A stretch of 64,000 bases of DNA from an uncultured Geobacter sp. (lineage in GTDB: Bacteria > Desulfobacterota > Desulfuromonadia > Geobacterales > CAIOGM01): the NCBI GenBank assembly GCA_903902855.1, contig CAIUWK010000102.1, forward strand, positions 1 to 64,000. The letters are read 5' to 3'. The notes beneath the pieces are model-generated. The model ran no database searches and had not been told where the DNA came from. It saw only the letters and a program-made list of their open reading frames with translations. Positions 39,638 through 59,723 of the stretch are shown piece by piece (position 1 is the first letter of the stretch; each line of letters begins with the position of its first letter). Both the position numbers and the translations under genes were made by a program.

Positions 39638-40636
39638 TTATAGCACCTGTTTTTCTTTCAACCACTTATGGAGCATTACGAACCCCTCCTCCAGTGAAAC
39701 CTTCGGCTCATAATTGAGATCCCGACGGGCCGCAGCAAGTGTGAACCAGTGTGCAGTGGCAAGTTCCCGAGCCACAAAACGGGTCATCGGCGGCTCCCCT
39801 GATAGCTGGAGGATGCTCCAAAGCGTTTCACAAACGACGCCGGCCAGAGAGGCCATTCCTGGAGACACAGTTTGAGTCACCGGGGGAAGAGCGGCAGCGG
39901 CGAGAATACGGTTCACCATCTCCCAAAGAGGGATCGGCTCCCCGTTGGTTATGAAATAGCTCTTCCCCGCCACCTCTGATCCGGGAAAAAGCCGGTCTCC
40001 AGCCAGAAGGTGAGCCTGGGCGGCATTATCCACGTAAACGGTATCAACCAGGCAGGGACGATCTCCGATCCGCCGGAGTCTTCGTGCGCGGGCCTTCGCC
40101 AGGAGACGCGGGACCAGATGATTATCACCGGGGCCCCAGATGAGATGAGGGCGAAGCGAGACAGTGGCAAGAGAGGACGAGTTTGCCGCCAGAACCATCT
40201 GTTCCGCCATGGCCTTGGTCCGGGGATAATGAGCCTCGTAGCGGGAAGGATAAGGAAGCGATTCGTCCCCGCCTTCCACGTCCCGGCCATCGAAGATCAC
40301 ACTGGGGGAGCTGGTGTAGACGAGCCGTTGGATGCCGTGGGCCCGGCAGGCCGCAAAGACGTTCTCCGTACCGGTAACATTCGCCTGATAAAACTCCTGA
40401 TATGGCCCCCAGATGCCGGCCTTGGCCGCCACATGGAAGACGATATCGCACCCACTCGCAGCACAAAAGAGCGCGTCCCGTTCCGTCAGGTCACCCCGGA
40501 ACTGTTGAACTCCGAGCTTGGCCAGCCCCGGATGTTCGCCCCGGGAGAAGCTCCGCACCTCATCTCCCCGCTCAAGGAGCTGCCGCACGATTACCCCCCC
40601 CAGAAAACCGCCGCCACCGGTGACCAGGACCTTCAC
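39638..40636 (-). CDS. oleD: OleD-like NAD(P)-dependent 2-alkyl-3-ketoalkanoate reductase
   Basis: VTGGGGFLGGVIVRQL; YTSSPSVIF...YPRTKA; 3beta-HSD-like family; ole gene context. Confidence 0.85.
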   Translation of the reverse strand: MKVLVTGGGGFLGGVIVRQLLERGDEVRSFSRGEHPGLAKLGVQQFRGDLTERDALFCAASGCDIVFHVAAKAGIWGPYQEFYQANVTGTENVFAACRAHGIQRLVYTSSPSVIFDGRDVEGGDESLPYPSRYEAHYPRTKAMAEQMVLAANSSSLATVSLRPHLIWGPGDNHLVPRLLAKARARRLRRIGDRPCLVDTVYVDNAAQAHLLAGDRLFPGSEVAGKSYFITNGEPIPLWEMVNRILAAAALPPVTQTVSPGMASLAGVVCETLWSILQLSGEPPMTRFVARELATAHWFTLAAARRDLNYEPKVSLEEGFVMLHKWLKEKQVL

Positions 40637-42273
40637 CTGATTTTTCCTGACGCCCAGACGGCGAGCTTTTCCCTAAAGATTTTCGCGTTATGCCGAATGT
40701 CCACGGGAAAGGCAGGATGAAAGAGGATATCCCTGATTTCCCGGGTATGGGGATAGCCGCTCCCCAGTTCCAGCAGCTCCTGACGAACCCGCTCCTGCTC
40801 TGACTTCCCCTTCCCCGCTTCCAACTCCACGCAGAGCACAGGGTGCTGTGCCCCTTTTTCCCCAATGCCGACCAGGGCGGTGCGAAGGACCTCCGGATGT
40901 GTATTAAAGACCCCTTCCACCGGAATGGTGTAGAAGGTTTCCCTGTCGGTCTCAACCCGATGGGACTTTCGGCCGCAGAACCAGACTCTGCCGCTCTTGT
41001 CCTTATACCCCACATCCCCCATCCGGTGCCAGACTCCACCGTCAGGGTCGGGAATCTTGGCCACCCGGGTCGCCTCAGGACGGTTCAGGTAGGCGTGACT
41101 CACCTGCGGTCCCAGCACAACAATCTCCCCCACCTCAAAAGGGGGGAGGTCCAGCCCGTCATCCCACAGGTCGATGGGATCGTCGCTGACAGGGATGATC
41201 GCCAACCAGATCCCCTCAACCGGCATCCCGACACAGACCCCCAGCCCCTTGTCGGTCATTCGTCCGGTTTCAGCAAGTATCTCGTTGCTGCCGATGGAGC
41301 AGACAGGGAGGGCCTCGGTGGCACCGTAGGGGGTGAAGATCTCCGCATCATCGGGGAGGAGTGCCGCGAAACGCTCCAGCACCGAGGCCGGAACCGGCGC
41401 TCCCGCCGAGATGACCCGCTTGAGATGGGGGAGAGTGGTTCCCTTGGCGGCGCCCTGGCGACCGATCTTGTTCAGCAGGGCCGGAGAGCCGAACATGGTG
41501 GTGGCGCAGTATTCGGCGGCAGGCCCCAGAATCCGGGAAGGATCCACCGATCCCGGGCGGGTAAAATCCATCTCCGGGATCAGGGCGGTCATCCCCAAGG
41601 CCGGAGCAAAGAGGGCGAAGAGAGGAAATGTAGGAAGATCAATCTCCCCAGGCCGGATGTCGTACAGCTCACGCAGAGCATTCACTTGGGCCGCAAAGGT
41701 GCCGTGGGTATAGATCGCCCCCTTGGGGGGACCGGTACTCCCGCTGGTGAAGAGTATGGCTGCCGTGTCGTCCCGTAGCGTGTCAACCGGCGCAAAGGAT
41801 GGATCACTCTTTTTGGCTTTACGGATTTCAGAGAGCGGAACCCCTCCCCAGATCCGTCCCCCCCCCACTGTTACCAGGATGCGGACACTCTTACGCCCCC
41901 ACCCCAGGAGTCGCCGGGCCAGATGGGCCTTGGGGATGCCGATGAATGCCTCCGGTTCGGCCTCGGCCAGACATCCCTTCATGTTCTTTGCCCCGATCCC
42001 CGGATCGATGAAGACCGGCACGGCGCCGGCCTTGAACAGGGCAAAGGTGACGCTGAAGAGCTCCGGTGACGGAGGAACCAGGAGCGCCACCCGCATGCCG
42101 CGACAGATACCGATACGGCCGAAACCTTGAGCTATCCGGTCGCTTTCCTCATCCAGTTCGTGAAAAGTCAGGCTGCGTTTTTCCTGGGGAAAGATGATGG
42201 CGGGCGTATCCGGCTGGAGCCGGGCCATCTCGGTCAGGGGAAGGGAGATATTGACGATGTGGGAGTGGGGCAT
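40633..42273 (-). CDS. oleC: OleC-like AMP-dependent ligase (beta-lactone synthetase family)
   Basis: AAILFTSGSTGPPKGAIYTHGTF, TPYGATEALPV; ATGA overlap with oleD. Confidence 0.88.
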   Translation of the reverse strand: MPHSHIVNISLPLTEMARLQPDTPAIIFPQEKRSLTFHELDEESDRIAQGFGRIGICRGMRVALLVPPSPELFSVTFALFKAGAVPVFIDPGIGAKNMKGCLAEAEPEAFIGIPKAHLARRLLGWGRKSVRILVTVGGGRIWGGVPLSEIRKAKKSDPSFAPVDTLRDDTAAILFTSGSTGPPKGAIYTHGTFAAQVNALRELYDIRPGEIDLPTFPLFALFAPALGMTALIPEMDFTRPGSVDPSRILGPAAEYCATTMFGSPALLNKIGRQGAAKGTTLPHLKRVISAGAPVPASVLERFAALLPDDAEIFTPYGATEALPVCSIGSNEILAETGRMTDKGLGVCVGMPVEGIWLAIIPVSDDPIDLWDDGLDLPPFEVGEIVVLGPQVSHAYLNRPEATRVAKIPDPDGGVWHRMGDVGYKDKSGRVWFCGRKSHRVETDRETFYTIPVEGVFNTHPEVLRTALVGIGEKGAQHPVLCVELEAGKGKSEQERVRQELLELGSGYPHTREIRDILFHPAFPVDIRHNAKIFREKLAVWASGKIR

Positions 42274-42379
42274 GGCGAATCCAGGGGAATGAAGTTGATC
42301 ATAAGTGAATTCAACGGGTTTAGACTGCGGAACTCAAGGATACAGCTTGGGGTGAGGGACGAACCCCAACGGGCACTAT

Positions 42380-43270
42380 TCACTCTTCAGTCCTCTCCAG
42401 AAATGCCGAGATCAACGGAAGCACCTCATCCCTGGCATCCTCAAGGATGTAGTGCCCGCAATCGGGGAACCGGTGAATTTCGGCTTCGGGAAAGCGCTTT
42501 TCCCATTGGGTCAAAAAATGGCGATCAAAAACAAAATCCAGCTCCCCCCAGCAGATGAGGATGGGGAGTTTTTTGAACCGATCGATGCCGTCGGCGATGG
42601 AGGTGACCAGATCATAACCGCGGTCACCCGGCTCCAGCGGGATATCCTGCACGAAACGCAAGGTGGCGATACGGTTCTGCCAGGAATCATAGGGGAGCTG
42701 ATAGAGATGGCGCAGCTCCCCGCTCATGGGGTTACGCTTGCACCCCACGTACGAGGCAGCCAGACTGAAGGCGTTGAAACCGCGCACCAGGAGCGAACCG
42801 ATAAAGGTATCCCGGCAGATCTTCAATGCCAGGGGAAACTGCTTGACTTTGGGAAGGTGGAACGCGCCGGTATTGAGCATCACCAGCCGCCTGATCCGCT
42901 CCGGGTACCGCACAGCATAGGCCATGCCGATCATCCCCCCCCAGTCATGCAGCACCAGGGTGATCTTCTCCCGAATTTCCAGATGCTCCAGCAACTGCTC
43001 CAGGTCGTCCACCCGGCGGGAAAGGGTGTAGTCGTACCGGTCATCCCCCGGCTTATCCGACAACCCGCACCCAATGTGGTCGGGGACGATGCAGCGGTAA
43101 CGGTCGCGCAGGGCCAGGACGAGATTGCGATAGTAGAAGGACCAGGATGGATTGCCATGCACCATCACCACCGGCAACCCTTCACCTTCGTCCAGGAAGT
43201 GGTAGTTAAGACCACCAAGATCCAGGCTCTTGCCCGTAAAGGGATACTCTCTTTTCAGGTCAGATGACAT
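42380..43270 (-). CDS. oleB: OleB-like alpha/beta hydrolase (haloalkane-dehalogenase-like)
   Basis: VHGNPSWSFYYRNL, VLHDWGGMIGMAYAV nucleophile Asp; ole context. Confidence 0.88.
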   Translation of the reverse strand: MSSDLKREYPFTGKSLDLGGLNYHFLDEGEGLPVVMVHGNPSWSFYYRNLVLALRDRYRCIVPDHIGCGLSDKPGDDRYDYTLSRRVDDLEQLLEHLEIREKITLVLHDWGGMIGMAYAVRYPERIRRLVMLNTGAFHLPKVKQFPLALKICRDTFIGSLLVRGFNAFSLAASYVGCKRNPMSGELRHLYQLPYDSWQNRIATLRFVQDIPLEPGDRGYDLVTSIADGIDRFKKLPILICWGELDFVFDRHFLTQWEKRFPEAEIHRFPDCGHYILEDARDEVLPLISAFLERTEE

Positions 43271-44314
43271 CTACCACTCCACTCCCAGCATGGTGCAGTT
43301 GAGCCCGCTCCCGATCCCCAGCAGCGCGACCCGGTCGCCGGGGAGAAGAACTTCCCGCTCATCCGCCAGGGCCATGGTGAGGGGGAGGGAGACGGTCCCC
43401 ATGTTCCCCAGGAATTCGTAGGTGGTGAAATCCTTTTCCGGAGAGATCCCCAGAGCAGTGAGAATGGCCCCCTGGTGGGCCGAACCCACCTGATGGCAGA
43501 TCACCCGATCCACCTGGTCGGCGCGCCACCCCACCTCCGGCAAAAAATTTTCCCAGGTACGCCGCCCCAGTTCGACCCCGTAGGTCATCACCTTCACCGC
43601 ATCGGTGCGCATGGACTGGACAACCCCGCCGGACCCATCGGGGACAACCCCCCAGAGGCAGAGATCGTGATGTTCGGGAGCCGCCAGATTTGCCCCCCCC
43701 AGGAGACGATGCCCGCGAGAAGAGCCGAAGGAACCGTCGGTGAGGAGGACCGCCACGGCCCCGGAACCGCCGGTGAGGGTTGCCAGGGAAGACGCGAACT
43801 GTTCCATATCCCGCCGGGCCAGCATCCGGGCTATGGTGATTTCGTTGATCTCCCGGGCGCTCTCGCAGGAGACGACCAGACCGGCCCGGATCTGCCCCAG
43901 TTCGATCCGGTTGGCCACGTCCAGGATACCGTTGAGTACCCCCAGACAGGCATTGGAAATGTCGTAGATCGCCGTATTCCCCCTGATCCCCAGCCCTGCG
44001 GCAACGCGGCAGGCGGTGGCAGGCTCGAACTGCTCCCGACAGACCCCGGTGTAGGTGAGGACGCCGATCTCCTGGGGGGAGATGCCGGCGGCAGCCAGAG
44101 CCTTCTCCCCGGCGGCGATGGCCCCCCGGGAGAGGGGATAGCCCGGCTCCCACCAGCGCCGCTCCCGGATACCGGTCAATGCCTGCACCTGTCCCGGCGC
44201 CACATGAAGCGCCCGGTAGAGAGGCTCCAGACGGGCCTCCAGTTCGGAGGTACTGACCACCACCGGAGCCAGTTCGTAGCCAAGGGCCGCGATCTGAACA
44301 TTGCGATATTTCAT
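43271..44314 (-). CDS. oleA: OleA-like thiolase-superfamily condensing enzyme
   Basis: DISNACLGVLNG catalytic Cys, CHQVGSAHQGAI His, KAS III-like layout. Confidence 0.88.
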   Translation of the reverse strand: MKYRNVQIAALGYELAPVVVSTSELEARLEPLYRALHVAPGQVQALTGIRERRWWEPGYPLSRGAIAAGEKALAAAGISPQEIGVLTYTGVCREQFEPATACRVAAGLGIRGNTAIYDISNACLGVLNGILDVANRIELGQIRAGLVVSCESAREINEITIARMLARRDMEQFASSLATLTGGSGAVAVLLTDGSFGSSRGHRLLGGANLAAPEHHDLCLWGVVPDGSGGVVQSMRTDAVKVMTYGVELGRRTWENFLPEVGWRADQVDRVICHQVGSAHQGAILTALGISPEKDFTTYEFLGNMGTVSLPLTMALADEREVLLPGDRVALLGIGSGLNCTMLGVEW

Positions 44315-44316
44315 CG

Positions 44317-47300
44317 TTATCCCTCTATCTTCAGGGTGAAATCGTTCATCTGGTAGATTAGTTTCCCGTCCACGGAGAGGAAGCCGTCGACGGTGAGGAT
44401 GCGATTTTGGTCATCAACGGCGGTAATCCAGGCATCCACCGTGACGCGACGGTTGGTGGGGACGATCTGCCCCCGATAGAGCCAGCGGTGTGGCCGCTCC
44501 GGAACCGCGGCAACGAGAAATTCACCCTCGCGCCACCCCCACCGCTCCACGGCGGCAAACTTGAGGAGTTGGAGAAACGATTCCAACCCCAGGGAACCGG
44601 GGGTCACCGGGTCCTGGTAGAAATGTGCCTTGAAGAACCACTCGTCCGGATCCACCTCTTTGATCCCCCTGATAAAGCCCAACCCCACAGGGCCACCATC
44701 GGGGATGAACAGCTCCACCCGGTCGATCATCCGGAGTTGCCGGTCAGGAAAAGGTGCCGCCATCGGGTAGGGGAGGCTGCGACTCCGCTCGATCTCAGCC
44801 TGGGTAGGGTGATACGGTTTTGCCTCCCGAATCCCCACCTGGTTGGCCAGCGCCTCGGGGGAGAAGAAGCCGAACATGGTTTCCCCTTCGTAGAGCACGC
44901 CATCACTGTCGGCCACACTGAAGTCGAACTCCTGGATGATCATCCCGCCACTGGTGGCCGCCTTTGTCAGGGTGGCGGTGGCGGTCAGAACCCCGCTCTC
45001 CGGGGTCACCGGGCGGTGCTGGACGGCGGTTCCCCCCAGATTGCGGAAAGAGAGATCCGTGGGGGTTGTAAGGGCCGATCCCACATAGGCGGCCAGCCAG
45101 CCGCAGGGCTGGAGTGCCACCTCCAGGAGGATCGCAAAAGGCATAATGGGTTGCCGATCGGCGGCAAAGTACCAGACGTCCGTGGGGACCATATACTGTG
45201 CCTCGGCCAGGGCGCCGGCCTGCATCCGCCACGGCTCCCCCTTGATGGCGGTGACCCGGTCCATGAACTGGAAGGGGGGACCGGGAAGTCGGGCTATCTT
45301 TCGGTCATGGTCGAACATCCGGTACGGTTGACCGAACCCCTCGGAGGGGTTGCCGTTACTGTAGGCCAGGATCTGTTCCTTGGTGTAAATCGCCGGTTTG
45401 AGTCCGACTTCCGACTCCCCGGGTTCAGAAGAGGGAGAGGAAAGGAGATTTCTCCCCCCATGCCAGAGCGTAACCAGAGACTCCTTCGTGCTCCCGGTGA
45501 GACGGACCGACATGTCGGTGATCTCCACGATGGGCTTCCCGTCGGCATACATGAGAGCGTCCACCACGGCAAAGGGTTCCGGCCGGTACCCCAGCTCACG
45601 GATGGTGACTTCATAGGTCACCACCTTTGTGGATTCCAGAACCTGCCCCCGGCAGCAGAGCCGGCTTGCCACCCCCGGCACCGGTTCCCAGGCTGCGCCA
45701 CCGGACTCCGCCACCCACCCCATCCGGAGCAGGAAGATCCGGAGGGTATGAAGGCAACACTCGTACATGAGGGTGCCGGGCATGACCCGGTCATCCACGA
45801 AGTGACAGGTGATAAACCAGTCATCCGGGTGGATGTCCGCCTCGGCCCGGATGAGCCCCAGACCGTACCGCCCGCCATGGGGGTTCAGCTCCATGACCCG
45901 GTGAACCAGCCGCATCCTCCCCCCAGGAATGGTGAGCGGACGCGCCAAGGGAAGCCCGCTAAAGGAGTCGCCGAAACAGCCTGCCAGATCCCCGTCACGC
46001 AACCGGTCCACCTGCCGAGCATCGTACGCTTCCCGTCCCATGGGGACCAGCGCTTCCCAGTCGTCCGGGATGGTGCCTGTCTCGGGGCGGAGTTCCAGAA
46101 GCGGTCGAACGATCCCCTTCCCTGCTGCCAACTCCCCGGTGGTGAAGAATCCGGCACAACCGTCCCTCATGGAAAGAAGCGGCTCTCCGTTCACCGTGGC
46201 TTCGAAGAAGAAGCGGAAGAGATGGGTCTCCCCCTGGCGAAAAAACCGTTGGATACGGATGTCGTAGCTGATGGTCTCCCCCGGTGCGGGCAGCCCCCGG
46301 TGGAAGGTGACGACGGCGTCCAGAAGCCGGTAAACCGCCTCCCCTCTGGTGATGAAGTCGATCCCCAGATAACCGGAGAGGAAGAGGTCGGCCTGACCCG
46401 CCTCCACGGCGATGCAGGTTGGGATCCGCCCACCATCCAAGTACCAGCCATCCCGCAGCACGTCATGCTCCGTCACCACCCGACCGCTGGACATGGAGCA
46501 AGCCTCCCCCTCCAGGGTCACGATCCGGTCCACCAGCATGAGCGGTTCATCGGGAAGCCGTACCCGGGTGGGAAAAGTGTCGGCCTCGGCAAAGGTCGGC
46601 CCCAGCATCCTGGCCACGGAACCGCGGGCGAATTCCAGACACATCTCCCGATCAAAGACGCAGCTCCCTCCCCCTTGACGGGGGAGGGTTGGGGAGGAGG
46701 TGAGGTCGGCAGGAGCAAAAATGTCGGAAGATCCTCCCAGCGCAGCCACCAGAGACGCCTGTAGTGCCAACCCCTCCGCCATGGCAAGAGTAAGGCTCTT
46801 CGCCACATCCAGATAGGCTTCATGAGCCTTAACCTGCGCTCCCTGAGCAGCCGCAAAGCCACGAATGATGGCATCCAGAGAAGAGTCGGAATCGCCGGTG
46901 ACATCAGCTCTACTCAGCACCCGGGCTCTTCCTTGAGCTACGACAGCTGTTCCCTGAACAGAGGCCAAGGGAGGGGGCATCGGTGAACAAGCCCTGCGCT
47001 GCGGCAGAGAGGGGAGGACAAATGACGCCCCGCCGGGAGTCACCCGGATCAGCTGTTTCGAGGAGGCAACCGTCACCGGCACAGGAGCGTAGAGAGACGA
47101 GAGATCCAGGGGAACCCGCTCGCTTGCCAGGTGAGCCAGCAGCCGGACAAGAGCCGATACCGGTTCCTGACCGGCAGAAAGCACCGGTCGGGCAAGGTGG
47201 GGGCGTCCCGCCAGAATCCGGTCGATCATCCGGCTGCAGGAACTCCCCGGCCCCATCTCCAGGAAAAGGCGGATACCGTCATTGTAGGCGGCATCAATGG

Positions 47301-50300
47301 TGGCAGGGTAATCGATCCCCTCAATCGCCTGGGCCAGGATGGCGTCGGCTGCCAGTTCCCGATCCGGCAGGTAGGAGCGGTGCCAGGCGCCGCTGTAATA
47401 GCTGATCCCCTCAGGGGGGGTGGTGGGAAAAAGGTGCAGTGACCGGTACGGTTCGGCGACCCCTTGAGCCACCTCGCAGTGGACCGTGGTGACCCCGGCA
47501 AGGGGGAAGAACCGGCACGCCAGGGAGGCGACCAGACGGCCGACAGCGGCGGCGTCCCCTCCCACCACGCACTCCTCCGGAGTATTGACGATGAGAAGAT
47601 AGACCCGGGGGAAGAGATGCAGTGTCTCCCGGACCCGGTGCGCGGAAAGATCCACCACACCGATGCTCCAGGTTACCTCTTCCCCTTCCGGGAGTCCCCA
47701 GGCTTGACGGGCGGCCCGGCACTCCCCGGCCAGATCAAGGGTGAAGAGGGTGGAGTCCTCCATCCGCTCCCGCATCCCGTCCCGATCCTGCCAGGCGCGC
47801 AGGGCAAAGAGCCCGGCCGACTCACCCAGACTGTACCCGATGACCGCCTGGGGGGTTACGCCAAAGCTCCGGATCAGATCACCGGCAGCGCAGCCGACAG
47901 CAACCTGGCCGAATATCACGGCCCGGGCATCAGCATCCAGCTCCGCCTGGGGTGCGCCGTTCCAGAAGAGCTCCGGTTGGAACTGCCCCCGGAGAAAGCG
48001 GTTTTCCCCATCCTGTTGTCGGCAGATCTCCGGCCAGCGGGCGGAAAGTTCCGCCCCCATTCCGGGATAGTGATTACCGGAACCGGGAAAGATAAAGGCG
48101 ATCCTCCCCCGGCTCCCCAAGGGAGTAGTCGTGTAGAAGAGCCGGTCGCGGAGTGCCGGGTGTGACGTCGGCACCTCCCCGGCAACAAGTGCCTTTTCTC
48201 CCAGATCCAGGAGCGTAACCAGCTCTTCAGAATTCCGGGCAACCAGGGAAAGCGCCAGCGCTGCCGCCGGTTCTCCCTGACTCCTCTCATGCCGGAGTCG
48301 GGCAAGTCGTCCCAGGTCGCTCTCTCTTCCCAGTTCCCGCCGAAGAGAGGAAAGCTCCAGCGACAGCTCCTCCGGGGATTCTCCGGTGAGGATAAAAAGC
48401 GACTCTCCCACCGGACCCAGTGGCGCACGACGCTCCTCCCGGTTCCGGGGATGGTCGTGGTCCCATCCCTCCAGGACCAGATGGCCATAGCTTCCGTCAA
48501 CACCGACGACACTTACCCCGGCCCGGCGAGGGCCATCGGCCCGGTTCCGGAGCCAGTAACGGGGGGTGGCGGGGAGAAAGAGCGGACCGCTGCCGGAAAG
48601 CTGGGGAAGAGGGGTTGCGGCGCCACGGCAGGGGGGGATGAGCTCCTGATAGAGCGCCAGACACCCCCGGACCAGTGAAGCGAGTCCCGAGGCGGCGCCG
48701 GCATGTCCGATCTCCCCCGCCAGGGCGGAGACGGCGCAGGAGCGATGCTGTCGCTCTTCCGTAGCAAAGAAGGAGGCGAGGGCCGCCGCCTCCATCCGGT
48801 CCGATGCCGGGTGGCCGGAGGCGTTTGCCTCTATATAATCGACAGTCCGGGGAGAAACCCCAGCTTCGGCATAGGCGCGCCCCAGGGCAACGCCATAGGC
48901 GGTCTCATCCGGAGTAACCGTCTCACCGGCGGCAAGGCCGATCCCCCTGATGACCGCATAGATCCGGTCCCCGTCACGCTGAGCGTCGGAGAGCCGCTTG
49001 AGGACCACCGCTGCGGCCCCTTCGCCAACGATGCTCCCGTCGGCTCCGGTGGAGAAGGGGTGGGCCGTCCCGCCGGGCGAAGACGGCCGAACAGCATGGT
49101 TGCCAAGGGTCGCCCGGAGGTCGCCGGCCAGCTCCACTCCCCCCACCAGTGCCCGGTCGATCTCCCCCTTCCGGAGCAGGCGGACCGCCGTTGCCAGGGA
49201 ACTGATGCCGGAACTCTCCTCGCTGGAGAGGGTAAAGCTGGGCCCACCCACCTTGAACTCCCGGGCGATCCGGCTGGCCACGACACTCCCCAGCGCCCCC
49301 ATGGTCCGGTTGGCGGTGAGGGGGGGGCCGGCGGCATCACGAAGCCGGGCACTCCAGGCAGCCAGCTCCTCGGGGGTCAGGTCAAGGCCGAGCTCGGCGG
49401 CCCAGGCGTTCAGGTCCCTCCCCAGGGACCAGCGGTGACTGAAGTTCGTGCTGTTGAGATCCAGGGCGATGCCGATGAAGAGACCGGTCCGCAGGTTTCC
49501 CTCCCGCCCCACTCCGGCATCGGCCATGGCACCGGCCGCCGTCTGGAGCATGAGGAGCTGCTGGGGGAGCATCTCTTCCAGCTCCTTGGGGGGGATCCGG
49601 AACTGCTCCGTTGCCAGGGGCACCTCGTCCAGATAGAAACCGGCAAAGGGAGTCTTGTCCAAACCATTTTCCCGGAACCAGCTGCTCTCCTGCGCCCCCC
49701 ACCATCGCCGGGGAGACGTGGGGAGTTCATCGTTTCCTCCCCCCAGCACCCGCTCCTGAAAGGCCCGCAGCGACTGCCAGGGGCCGAAGCGGACGTCCAT
49801 ACCGACCACGGCAATGGATTCATTCGGGGCTCCGGTTTCGCTCAACCACCGGGCCGTCGCTTCCGACTCTTGAGTACGAACCCTGAGTGCATACCCTGAA
49901 CTCGTTCCCTGAGCGGAGTCGAAGGGCCACTCCTCCACCAGGAGATGGGCGTTGATACCGCCGAAACCGAAGGCGCTGATACCGGCCCGCCGCGGAATCC
50001 CGTCCTCCCGCCGCGGCCAGGGTTCGGATGAGGTGAGTACCCGAAAAGGGCTCTGCTCCAGGGCCATCCCCGGTTGCGCCTTGGTGAAACCGGCTGTGGG
50101 GGGGAGGGTCTCCGCCCTCATGGCCAGGAGCACCTTGGTGAGGGCCGCGGCGCCGGCGGCGGTGAGGAGATGGCCGATGTTGGACTTCACCGAACCGATG
50201 ACACACCGCTTCCCCGTAGAAGAATGTTCGCCCCAGAGCTCCTTCAGGCTGGCCACCTCCACGGCGTCCCCCACCGGGGTCCCCGTGGCGTGGCACTCCA

Positions 50301-51267
50301 TGAGCTCCACATCGCCGGGAACCCAGCCGGCCTGTTCGTAGGCAGCGCGCATGGCACGGAGCTGCCCTTCGGAGAGGGGGGCCAGGAGGCTCCCCCCCAC
50401 ATCGTTGGCCAGACCGATCCCCCGGATGATCCCGTAGATCCGGTCCCCCTGGGCCACGGCGTCTTCCGTACGCTTGAGGAGGAATATTCCTCCCCCCTCC
50501 CCCACCACCAGACCATCGCCGGCGGCATCGAAGGGGGAGCAGATCCCCCGCTTGGAGAGGGCGCGGAGCTGGGAAAAACCCATCTGAGTGTAGAGTGGGT
50601 CGGGTCGGGAGAGACCGCCGGAGAGCATGGCGTCGGCCCGGCCGGAGAGGAGCTCATCCACGGCCAGCTTGATGGCATAGAGGGAGGAGGCGCAGGCGGC
50701 ATCCAGGGTGAAGGAGCCGCCACCCAGACCAAGCGCCTGGGCCAGGATACCGGCGGGAAGGCCGGCCACGTAGCGGTTGAGGGGGTTTGTGGCGCCGTAG
50801 TCAACGGAATGACCCAAGAGCTTTTCGGCAAAACTCCTTCCCAGGGTTTGTCGGGTCAAAAGCGCCGAGGTCTCGCTGGGGAGAGCCAGATTGCCGATGA
50901 TCACGCCGATGCGGGAGCGGTCCAGCGTAGCGGTGACGCCGTCATCAAAGGCCCGTTTCCCGCAATGAACCAGCAGCTGAAAGAGCGGGTCCAGCCCGGC
51001 CAGGAGGGTCGGCTCCAGGGCCACCCCCGAGAGGTCGGAGAGGGGGGGAAGGGTGTCAATGAAGCAGCCGCTGCGGGAGTAGAGATGGTCCACCGCACCG
51101 ACCTGGGGGGAATAGACGACCTCCGGCGGGACGGACCAGCGCCCCTCCGGAACCTCCCGGGCCGCGCTGCTGCCGGAGCGGATGTTTTCCCAGAAGCTCT
51201 CCAGGTCCGGGGCATCGGGAAAGATGCCGCCGATCCCCACCACCGCCACGGTTCCGGTATACGGCAT
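44317..51267 (-). CDS. pfaC: PfaC-type synthase with KS, CLF, AT and FabA-like DH domains (PfaB/C-like fusion)
   Basis: KS DAACASSL; second KS lacking active Cys (SSEESSGISSL); AT FPGSGNHYPGMG...GYSLGESAG; repeated hot-dog DH segments. Confidence 0.87.
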   Translation of the reverse strand: MPYTGTVAVVGIGGIFPDAPDLESFWENIRSGSSAAREVPEGRWSVPPEVVYSPQVGAVDHLYSRSGCFIDTLPPLSDLSGVALEPTLLAGLDPLFQLLVHCGKRAFDDGVTATLDRSRIGVIIGNLALPSETSALLTRQTLGRSFAEKLLGHSVDYGATNPLNRYVAGLPAGILAQALGLGGGSFTLDAACASSLYAIKLAVDELLSGRADAMLSGGLSRPDPLYTQMGFSQLRALSKRGICSPFDAAGDGLVVGEGGGIFLLKRTEDAVAQGDRIYGIIRGIGLANDVGGSLLAPLSEGQLRAMRAAYEQAGWVPGDVELMECHATGTPVGDAVEVASLKELWGEHSSTGKRCVIGSVKSNIGHLLTAAGAAALTKVLLAMRAETLPPTAGFTKAQPGMALEQSPFRVLTSSEPWPRREDGIPRRAGISAFGFGGINAHLLVEEWPFDSAQGTSSGYALRVRTQESEATARWLSETGAPNESIAVVGMDVRFGPWQSLRAFQERVLGGGNDELPTSPRRWWGAQESSWFRENGLDKTPFAGFYLDEVPLATEQFRIPPKELEEMLPQQLLMLQTAAGAMADAGVGREGNLRTGLFIGIALDLNSTNFSHRWSLGRDLNAWAAELGLDLTPEELAAWSARLRDAAGPPLTANRTMGALGSVVASRIAREFKVGGPSFTLSSEESSGISSLATAVRLLRKGEIDRALVGGVELAGDLRATLGNHAVRPSSPGGTAHPFSTGADGSIVGEGAAAVVLKRLSDAQRDGDRIYAVIRGIGLAAGETVTPDETAYGVALGRAYAEAGVSPRTVDYIEANASGHPASDRMEAAALASFFATEERQHRSCAVSALAGEIGHAGAASGLASLVRGCLALYQELIPPCRGAATPLPQLSGSGPLFLPATPRYWLRNRADGPRRAGVSVVGVDGSYGHLVLEGWDHDHPRNREERRAPLGPVGESLFILTGESPEELSLELSSLRRELGRESDLGRLARLRHERSQGEPAAALALSLVARNSEELVTLLDLGEKALVAGEVPTSHPALRDRLFYTTTPLGSRGRIAFIFPGSGNHYPGMGAELSARWPEICRQQDGENRFLRGQFQPELFWNGAPQAELDADARAVIFGQVAVGCAAGDLIRSFGVTPQAVIGYSLGESAGLFALRAWQDRDGMRERMEDSTLFTLDLAGECRAARQAWGLPEGEEVTWSIGVVDLSAHRVRETLHLFPRVYLLIVNTPEECVVGGDAAAVGRLVASLACRFFPLAGVTTVHCEVAQGVAEPYRSLHLFPTTPPEGISYYSGAWHRSYLPDRELAADAILAQAIEGIDYPATIDAAYNDGIRLFLEMGPGSSCSRMIDRILAGRPHLARPVLSAGQEPVSALVRLLAHLASERVPLDLSSLYAPVPVTVASSKQLIRVTPGGASFVLPSLPQRRACSPMPPPLASVQGTAVVAQGRARVLSRADVTGDSDSSLDAIIRGFAAAQGAQVKAHEAYLDVAKSLTLAMAEGLALQASLVAALGGSSDIFAPADLTSSPTLPRQGGGSCVFDREMCLEFARGSVARMLGPTFAEADTFPTRVRLPDEPLMLVDRIVTLEGEACSMSSGRVVTEHDVLRDGWYLDGGRIPTCIAVEAGQADLFLSGYLGIDFITRGEAVYRLLDAVVTFHRGLPAPGETISYDIRIQRFFRQGETHLFRFFFEATVNGEPLLSMRDGCAGFFTTGELAAGKGIVRPLLELRPETGTIPDDWEALVPMGREAYDARQVDRLRDGDLAGCFGDSFSGLPLARPLTIPGGRMRLVHRVMELNPHGGRYGLGLIRAEADIHPDDWFITCHFVDDRVMPGTLMYECCLHTLRIFLLRMGWVAESGGAAWEPVPGVASRLCCRGQVLESTKVVTYEVTIRELGYRPEPFAVVDALMYADGKPIVEITDMSVRLTGSTKESLVTLWHGGRNLLSSPSSEPGESEVGLKPAIYTKEQILAYSNGNPSEGFGQPYRMFDHDRKIARLPGPPFQFMDRVTAIKGEPWRMQAGALAEAQYMVPTDVWYFAADRQPIMPFAILLEVALQPCGWLAAYVGSALTTPTDLSFRNLGGTAVQHRPVTPESGVLTATATLTKAATSGGMIIQEFDFSVADSDGVLYEGETMFGFFSPEALANQVGIREAKPYHPTQAEIERSRSLPYPMAAPFPDRQLRMIDRVELFIPDGGPVGLGFIRGIKEVDPDEWFFKAHFYQDPVTPGSLGLESFLQLLKFAAVERWGWREGEFLVAAVPERPHRWLYRGQIVPTNRRVTVDAWITAVDDQNRILTVDGFLSVDGKLIYQMNDFTLKIEG
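46664..46703. repeat. palindromic interspersed repeat captured in-frame in pfaC
   Basis: CCCTCCCCC-TTGAC-GGGGGAGGG encoded as TSSPTLPRQGGGS. Confidence 0.6.
49870..49926. repeat. interspersed repeat captured in-frame in pfaC
   Basis: CCTGAACTCGTTCCCTGAGCGGAGTCGAAGGG encoded as FDSAQGTSSGYALRVRTQES. Confidence 0.6.
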
Positions 51268-51269
51268 CC

Positions 51270-54200
51270 TCAGGCGGCCCCCAACCGGGGGAGTTCATTA
51301 TGCCGGAAGGCCCGCTGAAGGGAAGGGTCGATGACGCACTCATAGCCGTTGAGCCGTGCCACCAGTTTCCCCGTCTGCCGATCCAAAAACTCCATATCCG
51401 CAGTGGCCCCATGCTCCCGTTCCGAGGTCACCCGGATCACCACCTGAACCCCGTCCCGGGGGAAGGAGCCGGTGAACTGGCGATACCGTGCGGCAAAGGT
51501 GGGAAGTGAGCCGGCGGAGAACCGTTCGAAGCTCCAGAGGATCATCATCTGAAAGGCGCTGTCCAGAACCAGCGGATCGGTGAGCCAGTCGCTCCGGAGC
51601 GGCCGGTTGATCCAGGTCGCCGGCTTGGGCGCCCCCTTCACCAGGGCGGTGATCCCCTTGGCGGAGCAGTTGAGCACCTGCTCGATCCCCTGGAGATCGG
51701 GACCATGGAAGAGCCGCTCCCTGTGGTAGATCTCCCCTTGCAGCGGCTCATAGGGAGTGGCCGGCAAGTCGCCGATGGAACGGAGCCCCTCGGGGAGCCG
51801 CGTGGCCAGGACGATCTCGGCCCGGGCATGGAGGAGAGAACCGGCAGGGCCGTTACTCCGAAGTTCCACGGGGACCAGGTGGAACGATTCCCGGCGGGCC
51901 CCCCTTCCGGCCATTACCTGGAGGGTGCAGGGACTCTGCCGGTCAAAGACGACCCCCTTGCAGATGCGGAGATCATTAAAACCGTGAAAGCGGAATCCCG
52001 GATTGCCATGGAGCGCACCGTGGGCCAGCCACTCCACGATCACCGCCATGGGGACCACCGCCTTGCCGTCCATGACATGGGAGCGGAGGAAGGGGTAGTC
52101 GTCCAGGGTGAGGGTCAACGACAACGCCTCGGTGAGCGGCTGTGACGGCAGCGGGTCGGGCCGGGTTGCACAGTCGTCACCGCTCCCGGAGAGAGCCACC
52201 ACCTCCACCGGGGCATCCAGGGCTGACAGCTCCCTGACGAGAAAATCGCCCCCCTCGGCAAGGCCGATGAGTCCGACCCCTTCGTTGGCAAAGAGTTTTT
52301 TCAGGGCCGGGGTAACCATCCCGCCGTCCCAGGGACCCCAGTTAATGCTCACCGTCCGGCAGCCGGGACGGCGGCGCGCCTCTGACTGGGCCAGCTTGTT
52401 GAGGACCTCGTTGGCAACGGCGTAATCGGCCTGACCGGTGCGCCCCAAACGGCCGGTGGTGGAGGCGAAGAGAGCGATGAAGCGCAAGTCATCCCCCTGG
52501 GTTGCGTCCAGGAGGTTCCGGAGACCGGAGACCTTGGTCCCGAGGACAGCCGCGAACTGGTCCCGACTCTTGTCGATGATGAGACGGTCGGCCAGCACCC
52601 CGGCGCCATGGACGATCCCCCGGATGGGACCGTGGTCCCGGCGGATGGCGGTCAGGAGATCGGCCACGGCCCCGGCATCACGGATATCTAGGGAACGATA
52701 GAGCGCCTTCCCGCCGGTGGCCTCGATGCGGGCCAGGGTGGCGCGAAGCTCCCGCCCTGCCAGCACCGCCTGGTAACGCGCCTCGATCTCCCGGGGGGAG
52801 AGTTTTTCCCCTGCGTGGACCAGGATGGCCCGCTTGATGGGGGAGTCATCGGTGAGGGGGGCAAGCCATGCCGGTTCGGCCTCCGGTTCCGGACTTCTCC
52901 CCATGAGCACCAGGAGGGGGCGGTAGGCTTCGGCCAGCGCCAATGACGCCGCCGCCGTCACTCCGCGACCGCCGCCGGTGACGAGAATCACCTCGCCGGC
53001 CTGAACGGGAACGGTTGTCGACGGGGACACTGCCGGAAGGGGTGAGAGTCGGAGAGTGATCCTTCCCGCCGGCGTCAATCCCACCTCCACCGGACCGGGG
53101 GTGAAGAGTTCCCCCGCGATGGCGTCGGCCTCCATGACCCCGGTGGCAAATCCTCCCAAATCCATGGCCTTGCAGGAGACCTCCGGCCACTCCCGGGCGG
53201 CGGTCTTGGCCAGCCCGGCCAGTCCACCGGAGAAGGGATCAAGCAGAGAGCTGCCGGAACCAAACCCGAAAAAACCGTCCAGGCGCGACACCGTGGCAAA
53301 GATCGCTCCGCCACCGGCGGCGGCGCGGCGAAGGGCCGGGGCCGCGCTCTTCAGGAGGAGGAAGGCGTCTTCGAGAAATCCTTCATCCGCGCCGGCATGG
53401 GGGGTAATGATGACCAGGCCGGAGATGTCCGCGGCCGGGGCGGCGTCTTCTGCTGTGGCCATATCCACCAGGCGGACCGCCTGGCCCCGTGCCCGGATGA
53501 GTCTGGCCAGCTCACCGGCACAGGGAGAGCCGTCGTCGGTCACCCAGAATTCCCCTGTCCCCACCGTTGCCAGCGTCAGGAGTGAGGGATCAAGAGGGAC
53601 GGTGATGACACTGCTCCGATTGACGATGCCGGCAGGACCGGCTTCCACCGCCGGAGGGGGGGGGGCTGAAACATTTTGCAGAGGCGAGGCATTCGTCCCC
53701 CCTCCGCAGGCATTACCTGCGCCGAGAAATGCGGCGATATCCCCCAGGGTCCGGAGATTCCCCATCTGCTCCGGGCCGATGACCGGCGCGGAGGGAAGCC
53801 GTTCCTGGAGGGCCGAGAGGATCTCCACCCGCTTGATGGAGTCGATCCCCAGGTCCGAATCCAGCCCCATCTCCAGCTCCAGCATCTCCACCGGGTAGCC
53901 GGTCTTCTCGCTCACCACAGAGAGGAGCGTGCCGGTGATACTGTCCGATGTATCGGACTGATCGGGCCGATCAGTCCGATTTTCAGATGCTGCGGCGTCG
54001 CTGCCGAGAAACCTGGCGATGTCGGCGAGGGTCCGAAGAGATCCCATCTGCTCCGGGCCGATGATCGGCGCGGAAGGAAGCCGTTCCTGGAGGGCCGAGA
54101 GGATCTCCACCCGTTTGATGGAGTCGATCCCCAGGTCCGAATCCAGCCCCATCTCCAGTTCCAGCATCTCCACCGGGTAGCCGGTCTTCTCGCTCACCAC

Positions 54201-57200
54201 AGAGAGGAGGGTGCCGGTGATACTGTCCGATGTATCGGACTGATCGGGCCGATCAGTCCGATTTTCAGATGATGCGGCGTCGCTGCCGAGGAACCTGGCG
54301 ATATCGGCGAGGGTCCGAAGAGATCCCATCTGCTCCGGGCCGATGACCGGCGCACTGGGAAGCCGCTCCTGGAGGGCCGAGAGAATCTCCACCCGCTTGA
54401 TTGAGTCGATCCCCAGATCCGAATCCAGCCCCATCTCCAGTTCCAGCATCTCCACCGGGTAGCCGGTCTTCTCGCTCACCACAGAGAGGAGGGTGCCGGT
54501 GATCCTGTCCGACGTATCGGACTGATCGGACCGATCAGTCCGATTTTCAGATGCTGCGGCGTCGCTGCCGAGAAACCTGGCAATATCAGCCAGGGTTCGG
54601 AGAGAGCCCATCTGCTCCGGGCCGATGACCGGCGCGGAGGGAAGACGTTCCTGGAGGGCCGAGAGGATCTCCACCCGTTTGATGGAGTCGATCCCAAGGT
54701 CTGAATCAAGCCCCATCTCCAGTTCCAGCATCTCCACCGGGTAGCCGGTCTTCTCGCTCACCACCTCCAACAGGACTACCGTCACGTTGGAGGTGACGGC
54801 AACGCTGACCCGGGGAACAGGCACGACAGGAGTGGGGGGAGACGCTGCAGGAGGAACTACTGCCGGCAACGAAGGAGGTGCTGATCCCCGGAGCAGCAGA
54901 GAGGGGGCAGCCACGGCAGCAGAGAAAGGAGAACCGCCATGGAGGAGACGGTTCTGCTGATCCAGGAGCCCCTGAATAGTTCGACCGGCGGCCTCCTGCC
55001 CTTCCAGGAAGCGGCGGTGGAGTTGGGCCGTATCCTCCTGCATCTTCTGCAGCACCGCCATGCTCTCCCGGGTGACCCGCAACGACTCGGCGAGAATACC
55101 GGCACCGGGCTCCAGGCGCGAGGCGCTCGGCTCAAACGTCGAGGTTCCAGGTTCCAGGCGCGAGGTTCGAGGTTCGAGGTTTGTGGTTCCCGACGTCAAG
55201 CGCCCAGCGTCAAGCGCCTCTCTTTTCTTCTTCGGCTTCAAATAGTTGGCACCGCAAATGGGGATCGTCATGACCGGTTTTTTGCCGGTGGCAGGAGCCG
55301 CCGGTTGGTGACCGGCATCCCAGAGATTCAGCCGAATGGGGTAGCCAAGGACAGCCAGATGACCGAGGAGTCGGGCCAGGTCCGCCATGCCGGAGCGTTT
55401 CCCCGCCGAGGCATCCAGAGCCAGGGCCAGATGGTTGCGCTCCCCCAGGATCGCCTTCACCAGACCGGTGAGACGCGCGCCAGGGCCGACCTCCACAAAG
55501 GTGCTGATGCCGGAGGCATGGAGCGCCTCGATCTCGGCCACGAACTCCACCGGCCGGGCCAGCTGTCCGGCAAGGAGGGACTTGGCCGCCTCGTCGTCGT
55601 CCGGATAGGGGGCGGCGGTGGAGTTGGCGAAGACCGGCAGCCGCGTCGCACCGAAGGTCACGTCAGCCAGGGCTTCACGAAACGGTAGGGCCGCATCGGC
55701 CACCAGCGGGCTGTGAAAGGCAGCAGCCACGGGGAGACGCTTGCAGGCGAGCCTGCGGGCGCCGAAAAGGACGATGGCCCGCTCTATTTCGGCGCTGCTC
55801 CCCGAAAGAACCGCCTGGGACGGGGCATTCCGGTTGGCCACCACCAACTCCAGCCCCTCTTCCGCAAGGGCTTGCTCCACCAGGGCCAGCGGGGCCGGCA
55901 CCGCCACCATCCCCCCCCGGTCGCCATCGCCCGCCGCCATGAGACGGCCGCGGAGGCGGGAAAGGTGATGAAAGGTTGCCTCATCCAGTTTCCCGGCGGC
56001 GCAGAGAGCGGTCAGTTCACCATAACTGTGCCCGGCCGCGGCGTCCGGGATCAGGCCGAAGGAGTCCAGCAGCCGCAGGGCGCCCAGACTCACCGCGCCG
56101 ATGGCGGGTTGGGCCACATGGGTGGCGCGCAACTCCTCCTCCAGTCGCTCCTTCCCCTGGGGCGAAAACGCCGTGGGGGGGTAGATCCGGTCGGAGAGAC
56201 GGATGCCATCAGCCAATCCGTAGCCTGCATCGGCTTGCGCCAAGGCAGTAAACAGCTCGGGAAAGGTGCAGGCAAGATCGCGGAGCATCCCTGTGTACTG
56301 GGTCCCCTGGCCGGGAAAGAGGAAGGCGAGCTTGCCCGTGGGGCCGCCGCTTGCAAAGAAGGCGCCGTCCGGTGTCTGCCAGGATGAGGTGCCGTTGGAG
56401 CGGAGCATGGTCCCGGCATTGGCCACCAGGGTCGCCAGATTCTTCCGATCCCGCTCCACCACCAGAACCAGGCGGCAGGGGGCGCCGGCATCAAACCCCC
56501 TGCGGGCGGTGAGCGCCCGGTCGCGCAGCTCCTTCCACGGAAGGTCGGCGGTGAACGCCTTCAGTGACTGCTCCAGCTCTACTACAGAGGCACCGGAGAA
56601 GGGGATGATCTGGACATTCCCGTCCCAGTCGGCACTGGACTTGGCAGGGCAATACTCTTCCAGGACCGTGTGAAAGTTGGAGCCGCCAAAACCGAAGGCG
56701 CTGACCGCAGCGCGGCGGGGCGTTGTCCCGGAAGGGAGCCAAGGGCGCTTTTCCGTGGTCAGGTAAAACGGGGTCTGCTCTCCGGTAATCTCACCCAGGG
56801 GGTTGGAGACCTTGATGGTTGGGGGGATGACCTTGTGGTGCAGGGCAAGGGCCGTCTTGATGAGACCTGCCGCGCCGGCAGCCGCCTTGGTGTGTCCGAT
56901 CTGGGCCTTCACCGAGCCCAGGGCGCACCAGGGGGTCCGGGCCTGGCCGTACACCTCGCGCAGGGCCTTGACCTCCACGGCGTCCCCCACCCTGGTGCCG
57001 GTACCGTGGGCCTCGATGAGACCGATACTTTCGGGGGTCACGCCGGCCCGGTCGTAAGCATCGTAGAGCGCCTTTTTCTGTCCGCCGGCGCTGGGGGCGT
57101 AGATGGCGTCCCCCCGGCCGTCGCTGGAGGAACCGATCCCCCGGATCACCGCATAGATCCGGTCTCCGTCCCGCTCCGCGTCGGCCAGCCGCTTGATGAC

Positions 57201-58088
57201 CATGATCCCCAGCCCCTCACCCAGAATCGTCCCGTCGGCGGCGGCGTCGAAGGGTTTCGCGTCGCCGGTGGGGGAGAGTGCCGGGGTCTTGCTGAAGCAC
57301 ATGTACATGAAGATGTCGTTAAAGGTATCGATGCCGCCGGTGACCACCATATCGGCCTTACCCGTGGCCAGTTCCATCCCGGCCAGGTGAAGGGCGCTGA
57401 AGGAACTGGCACAGGCGGCGTCCACCACGCAGTTGGTCCCTCCCAGGTCGTACTGCTTGCTGATCCTGCCGGCCACCACATTCCCCAGGAGTCCGGGAAA
57501 AGAGTTTTCCTGCCAGTCGACATAGGAGTCTGAGATCCGCGCCACCACGTCATCGGCCACGGTATCGGCCACGCCGGCCTCTTTCAGGGCAGCACGCCAG
57601 AGGGGGTGACCCAAGCGGGCCCCCAGGGGGATCACCAACTCCATGGCGCCGGTGACACCCAGGATAACGCTGGCCCGGCTCCGATCATACTCCCGCTCCG
57701 GGCCGTACCCTGCATCCCGCAGCGCCTGTCCAGCGGCCACCAGCCCCAGAAGCTGAGAGGTATCGATGGCTTCCAGAATATTGGGAGGGATGTTGAACTC
57801 CAGGGGATTGAAGGGGACCGGGGAGATGAAACCGCCGCGCCGGCCATAGGTATGATCGGGGGATTTCTGGTCCTGATCGAAGTAATCCCCCACCTTCCAG
57901 TGGGTCGCGGGGATATCGGTGATGGCATCGATCCCCTCCCGGATGTTGGCCCAGTAGGTGGCAGGGTCTTCGGCTTTGGGAAAGAGGCAGCCGATACCGA
58001 TGATAGCCAGCGGTACGACGGAAAGTATGGTGGCCGGTTGTGCGTCCGGCGGTTTGACAATGTCAGGTTGTGCGGCGTGTGTGGTCAC
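51270..58088 (-). CDS. pfaA: PfaA-type PUFA/secondary-lipid synthase: KS-AT-4xACP-KR-DH
   Basis: KS VVDAACASSFSAL; AT GHSYGELTAL; four LGIDSIKRVEIL ACPs; KR ILVTGGGRGVTAAA; C-terminal PS-DH. Confidence 0.93.
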   Translation of the reverse strand: MTTHAAQPDIVKPPDAQPATILSVVPLAIIGIGCLFPKAEDPATYWANIREGIDAITDIPATHWKVGDYFDQDQKSPDHTYGRRGGFISPVPFNPLEFNIPPNILEAIDTSQLLGLVAAGQALRDAGYGPEREYDRSRASVILGVTGAMELVIPLGARLGHPLWRAALKEAGVADTVADDVVARISDSYVDWQENSFPGLLGNVVAGRISKQYDLGGTNCVVDAACASSFSALHLAGMELATGKADMVVTGGIDTFNDIFMYMCFSKTPALSPTGDAKPFDAAADGTILGEGLGIMVIKRLADAERDGDRIYAVIRGIGSSSDGRGDAIYAPSAGGQKKALYDAYDRAGVTPESIGLIEAHGTGTRVGDAVEVKALREVYGQARTPWCALGSVKAQIGHTKAAAGAAGLIKTALALHHKVIPPTIKVSNPLGEITGEQTPFYLTTEKRPWLPSGTTPRRAAVSAFGFGGSNFHTVLEEYCPAKSSADWDGNVQIIPFSGASVVELEQSLKAFTADLPWKELRDRALTARRGFDAGAPCRLVLVVERDRKNLATLVANAGTMLRSNGTSSWQTPDGAFFASGGPTGKLAFLFPGQGTQYTGMLRDLACTFPELFTALAQADAGYGLADGIRLSDRIYPPTAFSPQGKERLEEELRATHVAQPAIGAVSLGALRLLDSFGLIPDAAAGHSYGELTALCAAGKLDEATFHHLSRLRGRLMAAGDGDRGGMVAVPAPLALVEQALAEEGLELVVANRNAPSQAVLSGSSAEIERAIVLFGARRLACKRLPVAAAFHSPLVADAALPFREALADVTFGATRLPVFANSTAAPYPDDDEAAKSLLAGQLARPVEFVAEIEALHASGISTFVEVGPGARLTGLVKAILGERNHLALALDASAGKRSGMADLARLLGHLAVLGYPIRLNLWDAGHQPAAPATGKKPVMTIPICGANYLKPKKKREALDAGRLTSGTTNLEPRTSRLEPGTSTFEPSASRLEPGAGILAESLRVTRESMAVLQKMQEDTAQLHRRFLEGQEAAGRTIQGLLDQQNRLLHGGSPFSAAVAAPSLLLRGSAPPSLPAVVPPAASPPTPVVPVPRVSVAVTSNVTVVLLEVVSEKTGYPVEMLELEMGLDSDLGIDSIKRVEILSALQERLPSAPVIGPEQMGSLRTLADIARFLGSDAAASENRTDRSDQSDTSDRITGTLLSVVSEKTGYPVEMLELEMGLDSDLGIDSIKRVEILSALQERLPSAPVIGPEQMGSLRTLADIARFLGSDAASSENRTDRPDQSDTSDSITGTLLSVVSEKTGYPVEMLELEMGLDSDLGIDSIKRVEILSALQERLPSAPIIGPEQMGSLRTLADIARFLGSDAAASENRTDRPDQSDTSDSITGTLLSVVSEKTGYPVEMLELEMGLDSDLGIDSIKRVEILSALQERLPSAPVIGPEQMGNLRTLGDIAAFLGAGNACGGGTNASPLQNVSAPPPPAVEAGPAGIVNRSSVITVPLDPSLLTLATVGTGEFWVTDDGSPCAGELARLIRARGQAVRLVDMATAEDAAPAADISGLVIITPHAGADEGFLEDAFLLLKSAAPALRRAAAGGGAIFATVSRLDGFFGFGSGSSLLDPFSGGLAGLAKTAAREWPEVSCKAMDLGGFATGVMEADAIAGELFTPGPVEVGLTPAGRITLRLSPLPAVSPSTTVPVQAGEVILVTGGGRGVTAAASLALAEAYRPLLVLMGRSPEPEAEPAWLAPLTDDSPIKRAILVHAGEKLSPREIEARYQAVLAGRELRATLARIEATGGKALYRSLDIRDAGAVADLLTAIRRDHGPIRGIVHGAGVLADRLIIDKSRDQFAAVLGTKVSGLRNLLDATQGDDLRFIALFASTTGRLGRTGQADYAVANEVLNKLAQSEARRRPGCRTVSINWGPWDGGMVTPALKKLFANEGVGLIGLAEGGDFLVRELSALDAPVEVVALSGSGDDCATRPDPLPSQPLTEALSLTLTLDDYPFLRSHVMDGKAVVPMAVIVEWLAHGALHGNPGFRFHGFNDLRICKGVVFDRQSPCTLQVMAGRGARRESFHLVPVELRSNGPAGSLLHARAEIVLATRLPEGLRSIGDLPATPYEPLQGEIYHRERLFHGPDLQGIEQVLNCSAKGITALVKGAPKPATWINRPLRSDWLTDPLVLDSAFQMMILWSFERFSAGSLPTFAARYRQFTGSFPRDGVQVVIRVTSEREHGATADMEFLDRQTGKLVARLNGYECVIDPSLQRAFRHNELPRLGAA
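53740..54775 (-). repeat. four tandem ACP-encoding repeats, 282-bp period
   Basis: CCGGGTAGCCGGTCTTCTCG at 53891, 54173, 54455 and 54737, exactly 282 bp apart (94 aa). Confidence 0.95.
55107..55220. repeat. degenerate short-period repeat in pfaA linker
   Basis: GAGGTTCCAGGTTCCAGGCGCGAGGTTCGAGGTTCGAGG encoding LEPRTSRLEPGTSTFEPSASRLEPG. Confidence 0.7.
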
Positions 58089-59723
58089 CCAAGATACTCC
58101 TTGATCTGTTCAATGGGGAGGGGTTCGGCGCGAAAGAGTTCCGGCGGAAGACCGATCCCTTGGCGCCTCAGGGAGGTGGCGCGGGCCAGCAGCGCGGCGC
58201 CGAAAAGGATATTGAGCGCCACCGCGGCGACCCTGCGCCGGGCGGGACTCTCCAGGAACGAACCGGCGACCCATTCATTAAAGGCGCCCATGGCCGGACC
58301 GCACCAGATCTGATAGTCCATCCGGCGGGATGATTCCCCCTCCTTGGCCCAGTGAGCCCCCTGCCCCAGATACCAGCGAAAGACGAGGGCCATGAGGTGT
58401 CGAGGGTCCCGCTCGGCCCGTGCCACCTGTCGTGGGTCACGACGGAGAAAATAGCTCCGGGTCTCCTGCCAGATCTGCTCCAGAGGAGCGAGAAAGAGAC
58501 TCCTCTCCAGCTTCTCCCGTTCGACGCCGGGGATCTCGTCCAGAGCGGCGCAACTGCGGTAGAGGTCATAGAGCTTGGCGGCGCGCATGGGAAACATGGT
58601 TCCTCGCTTGAGGACCTGCACCGTCACCCCCATCTCGAACATGTCGGCTGCCGGGGCCATGGTCACATCGGCCTGACGGGTCACGGCAAGCATCTCCCGC
58701 ACCGTATCCGAGGTTCCCGATTCCACGCAGGCCTGATGCACCGAACCGGCCATGATATAGGCGGCCCCCATGGCAAAGGCGGCGGCAGCGGCGGCCGGGG
58801 TCCCGATGCCGCCGGCTAACCCCACCCGAAGCCGGAGATCGTAGCCGTGAGCGTTCTGCATCCTCCGGGCGAGGGAGAGGATGGTGGGGAAAAGGGCCAG
58901 GGCGGGACGGTTATCCGTGTGACCACCGGAATCGGCCTCGGCGGTCACCTCCTGGGCCATGGGAATCCGACCGGCCAGTTCGGCCTGCCGGACCGTGATG
59001 CTCCCCTCGGCCACCAGCACCTTGAGAAATTTTTCGGGGGGGGGGGGAGAAGAACCGTTCGGCCAGCTCCTCCCGGGAGACCTTGGCGATGATCCGGTTG
59101 GGGGTTACAATGCCACCGTCTGCGTCTTCATGGATGCCGTGAACCCGATAGCGAACCAAAGGGAGGGTCAGCGCAAGAAAAGCCGACGCCTCCACCAGGC
59201 GGACCTCTTTTCGAATATAGAGCTCCGCCAGGGCCGTCTCCAACTCCGGCTCGTGGGGGGAGTGGATCAGGTTGACGCCGTAGGGGAGTCCCGAGGAAGC
59301 AAGCCGGTCCAGCGCCGTCTCCACGCTCTTCAGGGGGAGACCGGCCGCGCCGAAGAAGCCCATCATCCCGGCTCTTCCCAGCTCCTCCGCCAGAGGCACG
59401 GAGCTGATCCCCTTGGCCATGGAGCCCCCCAGATAGGGATATCGAATCCCCAATTCGGCACAGAAGCCGGGATCGCCCAGCTGTTCCGGCAGACAGGGGG
59501 GGGCAAAGCCCAGGAGCGGGTGAGCATCAGCCGGAGCAGCGTCTCCGCAGAGGTATGCGTGACCACCCGACACGGGGAGAACTGTCCCGTTCATTTTCAC
59601 GACAAAGAGCGGCTCACGGAGTTGGCGCATGGCAGCCACCATCCCCTGGTCCTGAGATAAATCTTCTGGAGAGGCGGGCAGCCACCAGCCATGGGCGCCA
59701 CCCTGTGGTTCAAACGGTGTCAA
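58085..59723 (-). CDS. pfaD: PfaD-type enoyl reductase, frameshifted at G12 tract 59036..59047
   Basis: N-part ORF 58911..59723 and C-part ORF ending 58085 rejoin if one G is removed; FMN enoyl reductase-like; TTG start after GGAGG; ATGA overlap with pfaA. Confidence 0.85.

Follow-up and report, generated by a model that had tools for sequence, protein, structure and literature searches.

A tandem pfa-ole gene cluster, probably for a polyunsaturated C31 olefin, in the genome of an uncultured Geobacterales-like bacterium

The DNA analysed here, a stretch of 64,000 nucleotides that we call the window, carries a single minus-strand row of genes, pfaD-pfaA-pfaBC-oleA-oleB-oleC-oleD (39638-59723; Table 1), delineated by open reading frames and by Pfam and NCBIfam profile matches. 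We consider it likely that this cluster makes a polyunsaturated C31 olefin such as 31:9, by coupling of a Pfa synthase to the condensing enzyme OleA. The source genome comprises 3.56 Mb in 113 contigs, is 92.5% complete, and has uncultured Geobacteraceae/Desulfuromonadales bins as its nearest named matches.

Table 1. Features of the pfa-ole cluster and its downstream neighbour (window coordinates)
Feature	Position	Strand	Remarks
pfaD, N-terminal frame	58911..59723	-	enoyl reductase family, TIGR02814 positions 3-161; TTG start
C12 homopolymer (G12 on + strand), frame change in pfaD	59036..59047	-	
pfaD, C-terminal frame	58085..59044 (open from about 59044)	-	TIGR02814 positions 154-442
pfaA	51270..58088	-	2272 aa
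pfaC (PfaB-C fusion)	44317..51267	-	2316 aa
oleA	43271..44314	-	347 aa thiolase-fold condensing enzyme
oleB	42380..43270	-	alpha/beta hydrolase, haloalkane dehalogenase type
oleB-oleC gap	42274..42379	.	106 nt
oleC	40633..42273	-	AMP-binding beta-lactone synthetase
oleD	39638..40636	-	SDR 2-alkyl-3-oxoalkanoate reductase; GTG start
PEP-CTERM protein, downstream of oleD	38442..39401	-	

A preliminary description of this DNA had listed the same seven genes at these positions, all read from the minus strand, and profile scores bear out their identities far beyond chance. Both 4-nt overlaps, which it gave as ATGA, do exist between the pfaD stop and the pfaA start and between the oleC stop and the GTG start of oleD, but the sequence reads GTGA at both junctions. 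The tight spacing that it described elsewhere (2 nt between pfaA and pfaC, 2 nt between pfaC and oleA, 0 nt between oleA and oleB) agrees with the sequence. Its uninterrupted run of seven genes holds for order and strand, but not for continuity, as pfaD is split into two frames and oleB and oleC are set apart by 106 nt, a gap that it left unmentioned. On the minus strand of the oleB-oleC gap neither a sigma-70-like promoter nor a terminator-like site was found, and the whole row may be co-transcribed. Rfam and tRNA scans returned one tRNA-Pro and nothing at the pfa-ole cluster.

The enzyme assignments draw on sequence families (Pfam, NCBIfam) together with catalytic motifs. PfaA matches TIGR02813 with 1614 bits and has the domain order KS - AT - four tandem ACPs - KR - PS-DH, with C226 in the KS, GHSYG at 686 in the AT, and LGIDSI at 1131, 1225, 1319 and 1413 in the ACPs; a solved-structure search with it returned generic PKS matches only. 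The gene called pfaC encodes a PfaB-C fusion, KS-CLF-AT-DH-DH, with at least two FabA-type regions, the KS motif DAACASS at 189, a CLF that has lost its Cys (FTLSSEESSG) and an AT-like GYSLG. The KS-AT-tandem ACP-KR array of PfaA and the KS-CLF and FabA-type DH of PfaC are those by which a Pfa synthase is recognised.

The four OleABCD enzymes are likewise all present, with the examined catalytic motifs in place. OleA matches PRK09258/OleA with 497 bits, conserves E97, C123, H274 and N304, and can be aligned over its full length with the solved structures 3FK5 and 3ROW, both of the OleA type. In this it resembles the Xanthomonas-type OleABCD system, the genes of which are, to our knowledge, not part of a pfa cluster. 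OleB carries HDWGG and is expected to be the beta-lactone decarboxylase; OleC scores 738 bits against PRK09274 and 660 and 639 bits against OleC models, and contains TSGSTGPPKG; OleD scores 455 bits against NF042422 and contains YxxxK. A solved-structure search with OleC gave no match at 1e-60, and in a plasmid collection all matches to OleA lay below 60% identity, the best rows being about 28-30% identical and annotated as KAS III.

With these enzymes, the tandem ACPs of PfaA would hold the growing polyunsaturated chain, and OleA would condense two polyunsaturated acyl-ACPs, likely 16:4 on the Shewanella model. OleD would reduce the resulting 2-alkyl-3-keto acid, OleC would form the beta-lactone, and OleB would decarboxylate it to a polyunsaturated C31 olefin, probably hentriacontanonaene (31:9). 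The order of the OleD, OleC and OleB steps is established for the Ole pathway.

The passage of a Pfa-made thioester to OleA, as put forward in the preliminary description, is the best-supported reading and agrees with published proposals; as to the dedicated coupling and the product, which that description took to be the new part, the coupling idea has already been published, and so has the product in a relative (PMC3098273, PMC4882568, PMC6463001). Its belief that Geobacter relatives carrying pfa and ole genes were already on record was correct (PMC3098273, PMC4882568). Shulse & Allen (2011) defined the cluster as the Type I secondary lipid synthase of Geobacter/Pelobacter, listing Geobacter bemidjiensis, G. 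lovleyi, G. uraniireducens, Pelobacter propionicus, Desulfuromonas acetoxidans and Gemmata, and reported frequent linkage of ole genes to such clusters, suggesting Type I as a supplier of olefin precursors (PMC3098273). According to the passages of PMC3098273 and PMC4882568 that relay the result of Sukovich (2010), G. bemidjiensis makes hentriacontanonaene (C31:9, C31H46). A 2016 review gives the tandem order pfaD,A,B,C,oleA,B,C,D,pfaE for G. bemidjiensis, and calls the metabolites largely unknown (PMC4882568). Finally, Allemann (2019) obtained a 31:8 ketone from E. coli carrying pfaA-E and oleA, and argued for a direct supply of OleA from Pfa ACPs (PMC6463001). On this literature, and on the survey described below, we rejected the notion that the pfa-ole linkage is novel.

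The present locus has the features that define Type I in the Deltaproteobacteria, namely a pfaBC fusion accompanied by homologues of pfaA and pfaD (PMC3098273); as to an intact PfaD, the gene is in two frames at the homopolymer here and in a single intact frame in three congeners. Like the Type I cluster of G. bemidjiensis Bem, it begins with pfaD and continues in the same order with pfaA, the pfaBC fusion and the oleA-oleB-oleC-oleD tandem. It differs from that cluster in having no pfaE after oleD but a PEP-CTERM gene instead, in the pfaD frame being broken in the assembly, and in the 106-nt oleB-oleC gap. Compared with the pfaABCDE and oleABCD genes of Shewanella (PMC6463001), it appears to encode the same enzyme activities and the same expected product route, but in another layout, with PfaB and PfaC fused and ole directly after pfaC; among the genes examined, no pfaT was seen.

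Several observations count against the pathway reading. First, the sequence as deposited does not keep pfaD in one frame: the gene matches TIGR02814 in two pieces (411 and 171 bits) that lie in different frames and meet at the C12 tract. Were this frameshift true, it would break the pathway in this strain, or else slippage in the C tract could switch the pathway on and off, and a second gene of the window, a radical SAM gene (26425-27928, plus strand), is also in two frames, broken at a G11 tract (26976-26986). Against this, a contig in another assembly (L180 in G001) that matches at 99.8% identity over 3.9 kb shows G10 and keeps the radical SAM frame open, in keeping with an indel from assembly or sequencing; the pfaD tracts of three congeners are interrupted, 11 nt long (TCCCCCCC[ATG]CC[CG]GAA) and hence one base shorter, with the frame intact; and several other C/G tracts of 11-12 nt in the source genome sit within long open frames. 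Because of the shorter congener tracts and the G11 versus G10 case of the radical SAM gene, we take a 1-nt homopolymer indel in the assembly to be the most likely cause of the pfaD break, and regard a true break or switch as unlikely. As a conserved phase-variation switch, the C tract is unsupported for the same reasons, namely the interrupted congener tracts, the radical SAM tract that is one base shorter in the near-identical contig, and several other long tracts in open genes. The bin of the congener G001 contains both L180 (G001:C55), almost identical to the window, and a radical SAM copy of its own (L183) that is 73% identical; L180 is possibly a mis-binned contig of the source species.

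Second, no Sfp-type PPTase was found in the 92.5%-complete source genome, an absence that is provisional because of this incompleteness. Many relatives with the cluster have such an enzyme (PfaE), often encoded directly 3' of oleD. Searches covering each genome, three for the source genome (G000), G001 and G124 and two for G125, also found none in G001 (listed as 100% complete), G124 (1 contig) or G125 (2 contigs), nor was one found in others with pfa-ole; each of these four genomes, and others, has a single, AcpS-like match of the ACPS family, which in the source genome adjoins an nnr-like gene (named by eye). Two congeners (G002, G003) have Sfp-type enzymes elsewhere in the genome. We tentatively raise the possibility that the source genus and several other pfa-ole lineages, including G124 and G125, dispense with an Sfp-type PfaE and charge their Pfa ACPs through AcpS or through a PPTase not recognised as such; if this were true, a part regarded as necessary for Pfa synthases would have been replaced. 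Where many relatives have pfaE, the PEP-CTERM gene adjoins oleD in the window, and it is kept beside oleD in two congeners (40-48% identity).

Third, oleA occurs without pfaD in 18 of 395 phylum genomes; since OleA is also found outside the pfa context, linkage is no proof of an exclusive Pfa substrate. An intact cluster might have a different product, altered in chain length or unsaturation or released as a PUFA, free or in phospholipid, and OleA might accept ordinary FAS II acyl chains as well. Product specificity is unreadable from sequence, and Type I has been placed among the synthases with uncharacterised products, with stand-alone products being raised (PMC3098273). Nonetheless, G. bemidjiensis, with the same gene order, is the C31:9 producer of the relayed report cited above, and oleA directly follows pfaC in most loci; we consider a different product improbable.

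The linkage itself was surveyed in 141 genomes of the order, where oleA is present in 91, pfaD in 95 and both in 90. In all 66 genomes in which a single contig holds the two genes, pfaD is found upstream of oleA in the same orientation, at a distance of 12.9-15.3 kb; the remaining 24 of the 90 have oleA and pfaD on separate contigs of draft assemblies, and some of these (loci L113 and L124, described below) are truly unlinked near oleA. Among 80 named loci collected by an OleA search, pfaC ends no more than about 2 kb before oleA in 67 (at most 0.42 kb in 61, at most 2.1 kb in 6); in 8 others the space would suffice but pfaC is missing, and in 5 the space is too short. A synteny search had been proposed in the preliminary description as a check, and the result of this survey agrees with the published linkage. 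Among the linked loci are some from records with the labels Planctomycetota, Elusimicrobia, Verrucomicrobia and Candidatus Hydrogenedentota; single labels need care because many of the records are metagenome bins. In the phylum beyond the order, 18 genomes have both genes, 18 oleA only and 7 pfaD only, a co-occurrence (Fisher p = 8e-16) whose p-value ignores shared descent; 3 of the 18 with both are clearly linked (G314, G367, G513).

That pfa and ole adjoin by chance or joint transfer, with no functional coupling, could appeal to one genome (G297) in which oleA and pfaD lie more than 1 Mb apart on a single contig and to two loci (L113, L124) whose oleAB have 10.0 and 7.9 kb upstream but no pfaC there, leaving them unlinked near oleA, yet it is very improbable given the co-occurrence beyond the order, the near-constant oleA-pfaD spacing within it and the heterologous OleA-Pfa coupling already reported (PMC6463001).

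The placement of oleC and oleD varies among the loci. At L044 (5439-8080, G001) oleC-oleD is divergent and lies upstream of pfaD, and four linked loci (L098, L108, L121, L154), each with more than 8 kb downstream, have oleAB, with oleCD not found within reach. The missing PPTase and the moved or absent oleC-oleD are modest leads.

The survey shows in numbers that linked pfa and ole genes are the norm within the order and also extend to other phyla. Direct genetic proof by knockout in a Geobacter-type strain appears still to be missing from the literature, and the cluster is therefore a reasonable test bed for Pfa-OleA coupling, an idea that is itself not new. With this locus, a Geobacterales-like genus joins the strains in which pfa and ole stand in tandem.
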